From positions 1-26,652 of IMG/VR virus record IMGVR_UViG_3300049595_002766: a stretch of DNA of 26,652 bases; one strand, given 5' to 3'. Below, in pieces: positions 14,455-24,079 of this stretch. The notes under the pieces were generated by a model, which had not been told where the DNA came from, did not search any database, and was given only the letters and a program-made list of their open reading frames with translations. Position 1 is the first letter of the stretch. Each line of letters opens with the position of its first letter. Position numbers and translations under genes: made by a program. Origin of the DNA: a virus.

Positions 14455-14771
14455 GCATGAACACCCCGTTCCACCTGCGTCAGCGGGAGTTCAATGCGTT
14501 CAACGCCGGGAACCCCCAAGTCTGGGAATACTTTGAGCGCTTCACGCTCGAAGCCGTCAACGCCGGCCGCAGGAAGATCAGCCACTGGCTCATCATCAAC
14601 CGCATCCGCTGGGAGGTGGCGATGAAGACCACCGGCAGCGACTTCAGGATTTGCAACAACCACATTGCGTTCTACGCGCGCTTGTTTGTCAAGGTGCACC
14701 CGCAGTACCGGTTCATCTTCAATCTAAAGCGCATGGAAGACGAGCCATGGCACGGGGACATGCCGCTATGA
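14451..14771 (+). CDS. Conserved phage protein upstream of the Mom-like gene
   Basis: 106 residues, ATG overlapping the previous stop. The pattern FNAFNAGNPQVWEYFERF, GRRKISHWLIINRIRWEV, ICNNHIAFYARLFVKVHP followed by FIFNLKRM is a small family recurrent in phage and prophage genomes, mainly helical with many aromatic and basic residues, suggestive of nucleic-acid contact. No function is known to me. In phage Mu the gene before mom is com, a zinc-binding translational activator; this protein has only one Cys and is not Com-like. Confidence 0.75.
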   Translation: MSMNTPFHLRQREFNAFNAGNPQVWEYFERFTLEAVNAGRRKISHWLIINRIRWEVAMKTTGSDFRICNNHIAFYARLFVKVHPQYRFIFNLKRMEDEPWHGDMPL

Positions 14772-15436
14772 GGGTTGTAAAAATAACAAAAACCATTGCG
14801 GATAATTTTGTGACTCAAAAACACTACAGCCGACGCGCCTCTATTTTTTGGGCCGGGTTTGGTCTTGAAGAAGAAGGTCAAATCACGGGCGTTGCCGTTT
14901 ATGGCCAGCCGTCTCCGCCAATCCAAAAGCATGCGTTTAAAGAGCGTGACTTTAGGCTCTATGAATTATCCCGTGTAGTCGTGCAGTCAAGGACTAAAAA
15001 TGCAGCCAGTTTTTTGGTAGCCAATAGTCTAAAGCTGTTAGAGCCAAAGCCCTGTGCGGTCATCAGTTACGCTGACATGGAGCAGAACCATTGCGGGATT
15101 ATTTATCAGGCGACCAACTGGCTGTATACGGGCGCAACAAAAAGTCACGACAAGGCTTACATAGTTGATGGAAAACGAGTCCATCCAATGACGCTACGGG
15201 ACAGGGGGATAACCGACCCTACTCGATGGGCAAAGGAAAACGGCATTGAGATGGTGCCTCCAGCCCCAAAGCATCGTTACTTTCAGTTTGTTGGGGATAG
15301 GCGTCAGCGGAGAACTATGCTGGCTATGTTGAAGTATCCGGTGTCTGGTTCGTATCCTAAGTGCGATCAGCAGAGGTACGATGACGGCCCTATTCTGCTT
15401 GTGAAAACAGGCCCAGTAGAGGGTGTCTTGCTATGA
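14768..15436 (+). CDS. Mu Mom-like adenine-modification protein
   Basis: 222 residues, close to the length of Mu Mom. I chose ATG 14768 (ATGA overlap with the previous stop). Family features: QKHYSRR (H19, Y20) near the N terminus, GVAVYGQP, LYELSRVVV, then SYADMEQNHCGIIYQATNW (Y101, D103, Y113), which is the core of the GNAT-like Mom fold. Mu Mom converts adenine in DNA to N6-methylcarbamoyladenine and protects phage DNA from restriction; activity here is inferred. The H-Y and Y-D pairs match residues I recall as important in Mu Mom. The gene and the next look richer in A+T than their neighbours, hinting at separate acquisition. Confidence 0.85.
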   Translation: MRVVKITKTIADNFVTQKHYSRRASIFWAGFGLEEEGQITGVAVYGQPSPPIQKHAFKERDFRLYELSRVVVQSRTKNAASFLVANSLKLLEPKPCAVISYADMEQNHCGIIYQATNWLYTGATKSHDKAYIVDGKRVHPMTLRDRGITDPTRWAKENGIEMVPPAPKHRYFQFVGDRRQRRTMLAMLKYPVSGSYPKCDQQRYDDGPILLVKTGPVEGVLL

Positions 15437-18072: not shown

Positions 18073-18384
18073 TCAGCGGCCCGGACCGTCCACACGGTCC
18101 GTCTCTTCCAGGTTTTCCAAACGAATGTCCGTACGATCCCCGTTGACAAAGCGCAACCGGTTCTCGGGCCAATACCCCATGCACAAGTACCAAGAGACCT
18201 TGGCAGCAAGGTAGGAGACGCCCTCAAAGCGCACGCGCAACTCCGGATTGGCGGCAGTGGTCTCAGTGCCCGCAAACTCACCCCGCAGCCGGCCATGGCG
18301 CCAAATCAACGCGCCGTTGCCCCCGCCATGGTAGTTCAGCATCTCACGCATGTAAGTCAACGTGCTAGGATCAGGGGTGCTCAT
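18073..18384 (-). CDS. HNH-endonuclease-like protein, catalytic His missing
   Basis: 103 residues on the minus strand; ATG 18384 follows AAGGAACGAC. The layout is that of phage HNH nucleases: N-terminal ALIWRHGRLRGEFAG, a middle strand VRFEGVSYLAAKVSWYLCMG, then WPENRLRFVNGDRTDIRLENLEE. In active members the first His sits in an IDHINGD-like segment; here it is LRFVNGD, so F79 replaces the His and A61-K62 replaces the HR of the recognition helix, while N81, G82 and N91 remain. This suggests loss of cutting with retained DNA binding, or an unusual active site. It interrupts the plus-strand order just before the candidate origin/packaging region and terS. Confidence 0.75.
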   Translation of the reverse strand: MSTPDPSTLTYMREMLNYHGGGNGALIWRHGRLRGEFAGTETTAANPELRVRFEGVSYLAAKVSWYLCMGYWPENRLRFVNGDRTDIRLENLEETDRVDGPGR

Positions 18385-18578
18385 GGCGTCGTTCCTTGTT
18401 CAACGATGTGGTGGGAAGTGAAGCCTCAGTGTGTCGAGCACTGGGGCTTTGCGCATTTTAAAGGCAAAAAGGAGGAAGAGGCAAGGATCACGGATCACGG
18501 GGCTTACGTTTTAGCTGTTTTATATACCTTTTTCTCAAGATTTGTTTCGTTTAACAGCTAGTTAAGAATGAGATATTG

Positions 18579-18593
18579 GTGTAATGGTGTAAT
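18579..18593 (+). repeat. Iteron-like direct repeat, copy 1
   Basis: GTGTAATGGTGTAAT, itself two GTGTAAT half-units one base apart. An identical copy lies 63 bases downstream (18642-18656). Confidence 0.8.
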
Positions 18594-18641
18594 AACTTAA
18601 TGAAATCAATAGGTTACGAGTGATTACAGTGTTTTTAAGAA

Positions 18642-18656
18642 GTGTAATGGTGTAAT
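18642..18656 (+). repeat. Iteron-like direct repeat, copy 2
   Basis: Exact second copy of the 15-base element at 18579-18593. 63 bases is about six helical turns, which would put bound proteins on the same face of the DNA. Confidence 0.8.
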
Positions 18657-18792
18657 TTACCTAAAATGCGCGCGCGACTTATTTACTGCTGCTGAACGAA
18701 ATAGATGTTGGAAATAATCCTACTGAAACGATGAATTTGAACCGGGAGGGTCTGCGGTTGCGTTGCTTGTGGGTTTGTTGCACAATGTGTCC

Positions 18793-19011
18793 ATGAACAT
18801 CGAAAAAAATATCCCCCTGCCCGGCGGCGTTGACCCCAGAGAGCGCTATCCATTTCCCGAAATGGCTGTTGGCGACAGTTTTATGGTCTTGGACGCTACA
18901 TGGATCAAGAACTTGCGCAGCGCCGCCTACATGTACTCTAGGCGCCACCTCGGCGTGCGGTTCACCTGCCGTAGGCATGGGGAGGGCTGGCGCCTTTGGA
19001 GGGTCTCCTGA
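18793..19011 (+). CDS. Small conserved phage protein before terS
   Basis: 72 residues from ATG 18793. The arrangement NIEKNIPLPGG, then RYPFPEMAVGDSFMV, a basic helix (SAAYMYSRRHLGVRFTCRR) and GWRLWRV is a small family I have seen in very many phages and prophages; it is sometimes guessed to bind DNA. There is no Shine-Dalgarno site, and a possible promoter (TTGCGT 18758-18763, 17 bases, CACAAT 18781-18786) would start transcription at about the ATG, so translation might be leaderless. Its TGA shares a base with the terS ATG. Confidence 0.8.
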   Translation: MNIEKNIPLPGGVDPRERYPFPEMAVGDSFMVLDATWIKNLRSAAYMYSRRHLGVRFTCRRHGEGWRLWRVS

Positions 19012-19685
19012 TGGGCTCGTTCAAAGATGACAGATTTTTGGCCGGCAAGAAGCTGGGCGGAATAGACTCACGGGTAGAGGCCCGCCTGGCCGTCCAAGTC
19101 AAGCCCTACAAACCCAAAGTCCTGACGCCCCAAGAGTGGAAGTTTGTAGAGGAGTTTTGCGCGGGCGATGGCCATGTCACCCTGAAAGAGGCTGCTCTGC
19201 GCGCGGCGTATAGCGAGGCATGGGCAAAGAATCGGGCACGGGAGCTGACGGACCCAGAAAAAAACCCGCACATTGTGGTCGCAATTCAAGAGCGCCGGCG
19301 CGAACTGGGGGAGAAGTACGGCACCACGTTTGAGCGGCATATGCGCGATCTCCAAGTCATCCGTGACCAAGCGCTGCAGTCCGGCGCATACGGCGCGGCC
19401 GTTCAGGCTGAATATCGGCGCGGGCAAGCCTTGGGCACGATTTATATTGAGCGCAAGGAAATTCGCCACGGCACGATTGACAGCATGAGCAAAGAAGAAG
19501 TGCAGCGCAAGCTCGAAGAGATCAAACGCCTGTATGGAGGCAGTGCTGGGCCAGTAATTGACGTCACCCCCAGACAGCTTAAAGAAGAACCGGAAGAGGA
19601 CGAAGACCATGGCGTTGAAACCCGAAGCGAACCTGTACAAACGCCTGAAAGAAAATCTCCCAAATTGCCATTTCACCCGAATTGA
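19011..19685 (+). CDS. terS: Terminase small subunit
   Basis: 224 residues from ATG 19011, with GGAGGG as ribosome site; the TTG at 18996 was rejected. Residues about 38-95 (LTPQEWKFVEEFCAGDG, LKEAALRAAYSEAWAKNRA, then PHIVVAIQERRRELG) are the helix-turn-helix DNA-binding domain of the Terminase_2 family, followed by a helical oligomerisation part and an acidic tail. The protein recognises the packaging site and activates TerL. Oddly, terL is not next to it but 4.4 kb away. The last 77 bases overlap the start of the nuclease gene in another frame. Confidence 0.88.
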   Translation: MGSFKDDRFLAGKKLGGIDSRVEARLAVQVKPYKPKVLTPQEWKFVEEFCAGDGHVTLKEAALRAAYSEAWAKNRARELTDPEKNPHIVVAIQERRRELGEKYGTTFERHMRDLQVIRDQALQSGAYGAAVQAEYRRGQALGTIYIERKEIRHGTIDSMSKEEVQRKLEEIKRLYGGSAGPVIDVTPRQLKEEPEEDEDHGVETRSEPVQTPERKSPKLPFHPN

Positions 19686-23158: not shown

Positions 23159-23458
23159 ATGTCCTGTTTTGTTGTCCCTGATTATCACGTGACCACCGGC
23201 CGCGCCCCGGTTCCACTGTTGCTGAATGCTGCCGGCCGCGTCGGTGGCCGTCTGCGCCTGGTGCAGCTGTTTCGCCTGGCCGGCGCTGGCTTGGTCCGGG
23301 TTACATGGTCCGCCACATGGTCCGAGTATCAAGTACGCGCCACCGGCCCCGGCGGCCGCCTGGTGGCCGAGTACTTCACCGACGACAGGGCCGACGCCCT
23401 AGGCACGGCCGACGCCATGCTGGCCGAGCTGGCCGCAGCTGCCGGGGTTCCGGCATGA
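23159..23458 (+). CDS. Small Gly/Ala-rich protein of unknown function
   Basis: 99 residues. I took ATG 23159 after CTAGAAAGTGAGAAT; an in-frame GTG at 23147 lies inside that ribosome site. The composition is strongly biased to Ala, Gly, Arg and Val. Predicted strands in the middle (LRLVQLFRLAGAGLVRVTW, then SEYQVRATGPGG) and a C-terminal helix (ALGTADAMLAELAAAAG). I do not recognise it. It is the last island gene, followed by a strong terminator. Confidence 0.7.
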   Translation: MSCFVVPDYHVTTGRAPVPLLLNAAGRVGGRLRLVQLFRLAGAGLVRVTWSATWSEYQVRATGPGGRLVAEYFTDDRADALGTADAMLAELAAAAGVPA

Positions 23459-23480
23459 GCTGGCCGCGTTAGTTCGATTC

Positions 23481-23509
23481 AAACCCGGCCAGGCGCCGGG
23501 TTTTTTTTT
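23481..23509 (+). terminator. Rho-independent terminator ending the island genes
   Basis: CCCGGC-CAGGC-GCCGGG (23484-23500) followed by nine T; its stem is the same as those of the terminators at 20912 and 23052. Confidence 0.93.
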
Positions 23510-23643
23510 CGCCCGGTATCGGCCTGCCGGCCTGGGAATAGCTTAAACCTATCGCAAACCCCGGGGCCATAGTCCGCGCCATGCCAGGCCGCGATCCAGG
23601 CCCGGCCAGCGCGTGATCCGTGGCGCGCGTATCGTGGCTTGGT

Positions 23644-23845
23644 GGCCGTGGCCATGGGGGCCGCCGGCCGTGGCCATGGGGGCCGCCGGCGCTTGGTCCG
23701 GTGTTTGTGTTTGTATGTCCGCCGGCCAGGTGTTTGTATGTGCGACATACAAACAAGGCCCGGCCAGCTGCGGCCGCCGGCCGTGGCCATGGGGGCCGCC
23801 GGCCGTGTCCATGGGGGCCGTGGCCATGGTGGCCGCCGGCCGTGG
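23644..23845. repeat. Cluster of 22-base GC-rich repeats
   Basis: Three exact copies of a 22-base unit starting GGCCGTGGCCATGG (23644-23665 and 23666-23687 in tandem, then 23779-23800), followed by a shortened copy (23801-23816, with GTCC for GGCC) and a variant copy (23816-23837, one base changed), ending in another GGCCGTGG start. Each unit is full of palindromes (TGGCCA, CCATGG, GGCC). Confidence 0.85.
23708..23755. repeat. Long hairpin with duplicated left arm inside the GC-rich cluster
   Basis: TGTTTGTATGT occurs at 23708-23718 and again at 23731-23741; the inverse ACATACAAACA follows at 23745-23755, giving a perfect 11-bp stem with a GCG loop, and an alternative pairing with the first copy. 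The AT-rich arms stand out in the GC-rich surroundings. There is no T-run after it, so it is not a terminator. Confidence 0.8.
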
Positions 23846-23990
23846 TCGGCGTTCCTGGTAACTTTCGCCCCGGTGCCCGGCGCCCCGGTTCGCGGGCCCT
23901 AGCACGTAAGTGAGCACCCACCCGCCCCGGGGCCCGAAAAAACGGGCCGGGGGGGAAGCGGCGCAGGCTTTAGCCTTGTTTTACACGGTA

Positions 23991-24006
23991 AGTTTCACGT
24001 GAAACA
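23991..24006. promoter_or_regulatory. parS: parS-like centromere site (ParB-binding palindrome)
   Basis: GTTTCACGTGAAAC (23992-24005) is a perfect 14-base palindrome and the core of the bacterial chromosomal parS consensus TGTTTCACGTGAAACA; with flanks it reads A...A, matching 15 of 16 positions. This is the only such match I found; other CACGTG occurrences lack the TTT/AAA arms. No parA or parB is in the window, so the binding partner would be a host ParB or one encoded elsewhere on the phage. Confidence 0.7.
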
Positions 24007-24038
24007 CTTTTAGACCCCCAACAATAAAAGGGCCCCCT

Positions 24039-24079
24039 TTGTGTAACAAGTCAACCTGTGCCAAAATTTGTGCAAATTT
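24039..24079 (+). promoter_or_regulatory. Candidate terL promoter and operator
   Basis: TTGTGT (24039-24044), 17 bases, CAAAAT (24062-24067), with ACAAGTCAACCTGT (24046-24059) in the spacer resembling the ACAAGT-TG-ACTTGT palindrome of the island promoters. A perfect inverted repeat AAATTTG-TG-CAAATTT (24064-24079) overlaps the -10 and start site, as expected of an operator. Confidence 0.5.

Follow-up and report, generated by a model that had tools for sequence, protein, structure and literature searches.

The locus and its genomic setting

We asked what function resides in the AT-rich, repeat-bearing non-coding DNA at positions 18385–18792 of a 26,652-nucleotide stretch of viral DNA (hereafter the window), a region which a preliminary description had taken for a replication origin or a cos/pac locus. 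The window is a fragment of the genome of an uncultured freshwater phage; the same phage is present, at 99.98%, as an IMG/VR record of 60,786 bp, whose 127-bp end overlap yields a circle of 60,659 bp with the element in mid-genome. The closest GenBank record is Phage DSL-LC04, for which the family 'Dishuiviridae' has been proposed (PMC10611076), followed by the HTVC023P-type pelagiphages. A DNA-level search of GenBank phages returned no neighbours to the stretch containing the element, and an Rfam search gave no match for it.

The region is bounded by an HNH_3 gene (18384–18073, minus strand) and by a 72-amino-acid gene that starts at 18793 on the plus strand. It had been placed between an HNH-like gene and terS, which is correct on the HNH_3 side; on the other side, however, the next gene is the 72-amino-acid gene, and terS starts only at about 19011 (19011–19685, plus strand). 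PHROG 51, small-terminase profiles of the SF6/SPP1 type and the fold all identified its product as an SPP1/SF6-type terminase small subunit. The phage has replication genes of its own (an archaeo-eukaryotic-type primase, a UvrD-like helicase and PolA), located about 6–11 kb from the element. The HNH_3 gene (18073–18384) looks like a free-standing homing-type gene that only some of the relatives carry; the terminator hairpin described below co-occurs with it in many. A Mom-like DNA modification protein is encoded at 14651–15436 (Pfam Mom, 1.1e-32).

Organization of the element

The AT-rich element spans approximately 190 bases, from about 18529 to 18717, and is ordered as a GTGTAAT pair, a perfect IHF consensus, a second GTGTAAT pair and the box TAAAATGCGCGCGCG, with an inverted arm of about 35 bp on each side of the whole. 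Repeat searches and the alignment of relatives placed the first iteron pair, GTGTAATGGTGTAAT, at 18579–18593 (plus strand) in an 8-bp register, and the second at 18642–18656 (plus strand), 63 bp or about six helical turns from the first. The two exact 15-base repeats with four GTGTAAT and a 63-base period that had been noticed previously were thus confirmed: GTGTAATGGTGTAAT occurs exactly twice, and all four GTGTAAT of the window sit in these two copies. Between them, AATCAATAGGTTA (18604–18616, plus strand) matches the IHF consensus, WATCAANNNNTTR, perfectly; the conserved GC box TAAAATGCGCGCGCG follows at 18662–18676 (plus strand). The T-rich left arm (18531–18568) and the right arm (18679–18714), to which no strand is assigned, form a long imperfect inverted repeat and covary across lineages. 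The element is the AT-richest 250 bp in all five genomes of about 61 kb that were compared, with a GC content of 0.30–0.38 versus genome means of 0.55–0.60.

Three other features of the preliminary description exist, but none of them forms the core of the element; that part is played by the IHF site together with the GC box and the inverted arms that covary. The GGATCAC tandem pair is present in the outer flank (GGATCACGGATCACGG, 18485–18500, plus strand) and in several relatives recurs about 92–103 bp ahead of the core pattern, although the motif alone is unspecific; as a specific mark of the locus it was rejected, since viral contigs contain at least 120 matches, most of them at other places. 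The 8-bp inverted repeat (TAGCTGTT/AACAGCTA, 18512–18519/18553–18560) is minor by comparison with the repeat of about 35 bp, which had been missed. The 11-bp hairpin (stem 18421–18431/18439–18449) does not belong to the AT-rich site but is a terminator-like RNA stem: the stem-loop, followed by TTTGCGCATTTTA, resembles an intrinsic terminator (18421–18449, plus strand), occurs in relatives as 19 sequence variants with compensatory stem changes, and would stop rightward transcription ahead of the element. To the right of the element, and outside it, lies a near-leaderless promoter, TTGCGT-17-CACAAT (18758–18786, plus strand), 6 bp before the ATG of the 72-amino-acid gene at 18793; its hexamers and spacing are identical in 78 loci.

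Conservation of the core in relatives

A terS search of IMG/VR gave 583 stretches that encode a relative; of these, 80 were retained and their upstream DNA was aligned. The alignment showed a conserved block upstream of terS, consisting of two or three GTAAT, AATCAANNNNTTA, more repeats, either GTGTAAT in direct or ATTACAC in inverted orientation, and ATAAAATGCGCGCG, with T/A-rich flanks. At least 110 distinct relatives share the core; a perfect IHF consensus is present in 102 of 110 distinct cores compared with about 1% of shuffled cores, a count biased somewhat upwards as the element search required part of the IHF motif, which is nevertheless evident in the unbiased terS-upstream alignment too. 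Where both repeat pairs are present their spacing is 62–63 bp, again about six helical turns. Searching with core DNA patterns and nothing else gave 135 loci. In 128 of them terS lies on the same strand, no more than 900 bp downstream, and the remaining seven end before terS could be reached, so that terS follows in every locus with room (128/128). The genes upstream of the element vary, and terS is the only gene always near. The strict core pattern was found in none of 84,980 bacterial and archaeal species genomes, indicating that there are no prophage copies of this form in them.

Two alleles of the element, one with paired GTGTAATGGTGTAAT and one with three GTAAT and inverted ATTACAC, each occur in the ~80% as well as the ~67% TerS clade, a distribution that looks as though the element were exchanged as a unit. 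The possibility of an invertible segment was considered and rejected, given that core orientation relative to terS is constant in the pattern loci. The locus is a strongly conserved nucleoprotein-type element, to which proteins presumably bind.

Inverted arms

In the window, the arms at 18531–18568 and 18679–18714 pair with a score of 27, compared with at most 25 in 500 shuffles. Better arms occur in relatives: L055 has a run of over 30 identical bases, and near-perfect arms are present in L041, L114, L018 and DSL-LC04. Among the freshwater phages the arm sequence differs between lineages while complementarity within a genome is kept in many relatives. In 25 independent representatives of this group, mean pairing was 31.2 within a genome versus 19.4 ± 1.3 with right arms exchanged (p < 5e-5); a direct-orientation control showed no comparable excess (19.1 versus 17.6). 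Arms were not detectable in several diverged relatives. In the marine group, complementarity was well above shuffles (33 versus 16), but covariation between genomes was not significant (p 0.31). Folded as single-stranded DNA, the window copy was no better than its shuffles (z −0.26), so that a hairpin formed by the arms is put forward here only as something that might occur.

Marine phages with the same layout

In the marine HTVC023P-type phages the layout is kept while the repeats differ (CTAGGAAA, TGGCACA). In HTVC023P, five copies of CTAGGAAA are packed into the 92 bp immediately ahead of terS; no other such cluster occurs in the 30 kb examined. Dozens of its relatives share the same tandem pair, gap, further copies and inverted arms. 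In 023Pt_psg01 (L211, 4584–4806) TGGCACA forms two 9-bp tandem pairs followed by GCGCGCGACC; a 47-bp inverted repeat surrounds these repeats, with the same 129-nt spacing as in the window. In HTVC027P (L357, 14735–14936), repeats of the TGTTACAATG type flank a perfect IHF consensus, and the arms are weak. No such element was found in the DNA before the terminase genes of the CRP-901/902 and CRP-810 phages.

In HTVC027P (L357, 15254–15781) and 023Pt_psg01 (L211, 5328–5861) terS is inverted relative to terL, unlike in HTVC023P or the freshwater phages. Despite this inversion, neither the place nor the orientation of the element with respect to terL is altered in the two phages.

A second repeat-dense site before terL

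Each of the seven genomes checked also had a non-coding, position-conserved, repeat-dense site 0.5–0.9 kb ahead of terL. In the window (23455–24068) it is a GC-rich array of the 22-bp unit GGCCGTGGCCATGGGGGCCGCC before terL (24068), with other units in relatives, and the array is followed by a conserved block ending in ...GGGCCCCCTTTGT... This site could be the packaging site.

A parS-like palindrome, AGTTTCACGTGAAACA, lies at 23991–24006, about 75 bp before terL. It matches the bacterial TGTTTCACGTGAAACA at 15 of 16 positions, with 0.01 such matches expected in the window, and a copy with at most one mismatch is present in 19 of 74 distinct terL-upstream regions (six of them perfect), nearly always 74–80 bp before terL. 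No ParB_N protein was found in the eight genomes searched; such an orphan parS might recruit host ParB.

Replication origin or packaging site

The short list of replication origin or cos/pac given in the preliminary description was the right one, and the site is strongly conserved, but the change in GC skew proposed as a check was absent: neither raw nor third-codon-position skew switched at the site in five to seven genomes, in which skew was weak throughout. Both readings have a precedent in the layout, since clustered direct repeats with an AT-rich unwinding-type element in non-coding DNA are the build of an iteron origin, and an IHF site between repeats is that of a lambda-type cosB. We favour the origin over the packaging site and tentatively regard the element as a phage replication origin of iteron-type build, a reading whose probability we put just short of even.

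Several results support the origin. The two iteron pairs surround a perfect IHF consensus in nearly all of the distinct cores; the element is the AT extreme of every genome compared; the arms pair better within than between freshwater genomes; and the position is insulated, from the covarying terminator to the conserved promoter, and is kept relative to terL in HTVC027P and 023Pt_psg01. Further support comes from iterons in which GTAAT is constant despite a complete change of the TerS recognition helix, from the phage's own primase, helicase and polymerase, from the separate candidate packaging site before terL, and from the precedent of the pSC101 iteron origin, which requires IHF (PMC4980987). 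In the proposed mechanism, a phage-encoded initiator would bind the GTGTAAT pairs and host IHF would bend the DNA between them, such that the bound clusters would meet in phase; the resulting strain would open the T/A-rich arms on either side, where the genome is at its most AT-rich, and replication would start there. The inverted arms may form hairpins on the exposed single strands, where primase, the UvrD-like helicase and PolA could load.

Other results argue against an origin. Besides the lack of a skew switch, Pfam/PHROGs scans of window proteins recognised no initiator (Rep/O-like) gene, and no DnaA box (TTATNCACA, up to one mismatch) was found within 18385–18792. DnaA boxes are usual in iteron plasmids and are not required of phage origins; owing to their absence, the element was not filed in the iteron-plasmid family. 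In addition, the replication genes are distant and terS is the constant neighbour, the window copy folds at shuffle level, and the arms are undetectable in several diverged relatives and do not covary significantly in the marine group. As in the IHF-containing iteron origins of the pSC101, P1 and R6K type, a single non-coding stretch brings together clustered short direct repeats, an IHF site and AT-rich DNA. Unlike those origins, the element has repeats of only 7–8 bp, set in pairs that flank IHF, and long inverted arms that covary; it lacks a DnaA box and a recognised Rep gene.

The strongest alternative, which we consider possible but somewhat less probable than an origin, is a packaging initiation site (cos or pac), at which terminase would act on IHF-folded repeats, or on bent flanks like those of SPP1 pacL/pacR, and cut near the GC box or the arms. 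The constant presence of terS downstream on the same strand fits such a site, as does its location directly downstream in the HTVC023P group and about 0.3–0.5 kb away even where it is inverted. The repeat–IHF–repeat order is also that of lambda cosB (R3-IHF-R2-R1, or R3-I1-R2-R1; PMC4856287), with which the element shares repeats on both sides of the IHF bend, nearby A/T tracts and proximity to terS, and TerS has an SF6/SPP1-type DNA-binding domain. Contig left ends were enriched within 100 bp (10 versus about 2 per 100 bp), and three marine contigs begin within about 6 nt of one another at the GC box; however, the ends are spread over about 120 bp, are not base-exact and are confounded by T/A tracts.

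Indirectly, TerS itself speaks against packaging at the element. The stretch compared, inferred from the SF6-type fold to be the recognition helix, is wholly different among relatives with identical GTAAT repeats (forms SEAWAKNRAREL, TDNTAPVKGYLL, KATSASVMAWKL and PPAKAKPAVERL), and the arms do not track the TerS helix-turn-helix (HTH) either. With the C-terminal part of TerS standing in for phylogeny, the core showed almost no dependence on the TerS HTH (partial correlation 0.11), whereas the reverse correlation reached 0.39. As the recognition helix varies freely while GTGTAAT is fixed, TerS is probably not the reader of the repeats. The existence of another conserved non-coding repeat-dense site directly upstream of terL also argues against packaging here. 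Unlike lambda cosB, the element has repeats independent of the TerS recognition helix, symmetric arms and no identified cosN. It resembles the SPP1/SF6 pac (pacL-pacC-pacR) in its SF6/SPP1-type TerS and in recognition elements flanking a centre, but its arms are inverted copies of each other, whereas pacL and pacR of SPP1 share no sequence identity (PMC4856287). A combined ori/pac locus may also be considered.

We regard it as unlikely that the element is an operator or enhancer of the terS-side transcription unit, acting through a repression or activation loop formed by IHF. The conserved promoter does start about 45 bp to the right of the element and the two pairs of repeats lie in phase on the helix, but terS runs towards the element in HTVC027P and 023Pt_psg01, and the constancy of the element's position despite this inversion argues against a simple terS operator; long covarying inverted arms would also be unexpected. 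A non-functional or assembly-derived repeat region, which the AT-rich low-complexity tracts and the clustering of contig ends at the element might suggest, is highly improbable and already contradicted by the conservation: many samples together yield at least 110 distinct elements, with covarying arms and fixed spacing, and the element is present in the GenBank isolate genomes HTVC023P and HTVC027P.

Novelty and significance

The ingredients of the element are known; here they are combined as paired 7–8-bp iterons around an IHF site, a GC box, symmetric arms, and exchange of the repeats at constant geometry. As we know of no named site that this combination fits, we claim no family membership for it. 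In an open-access literature search we found no description of an origin or packaging site for these phages (cf. PMC12753301). The element may represent an undescribed class of phage replication or packaging site, a proposal that we hold a little more loosely than the origin itself: an iteron–IHF–iteron core with covarying inverted arms, in which the repeats are swapped between lineages while the geometry is kept, common to freshwater 'Dishuiviridae'-like and marine HTVC023P-type phages, and whose reader would be neither TerS nor a known initiator. The constant layout with exchanged repeats provides a direct handle, a defined piece of DNA to clone, to footprint and to follow by marker frequency (HTVC023P/HTCC1062), and through it the element can reveal the initiator or the terminase partner of a very common group of viruses.
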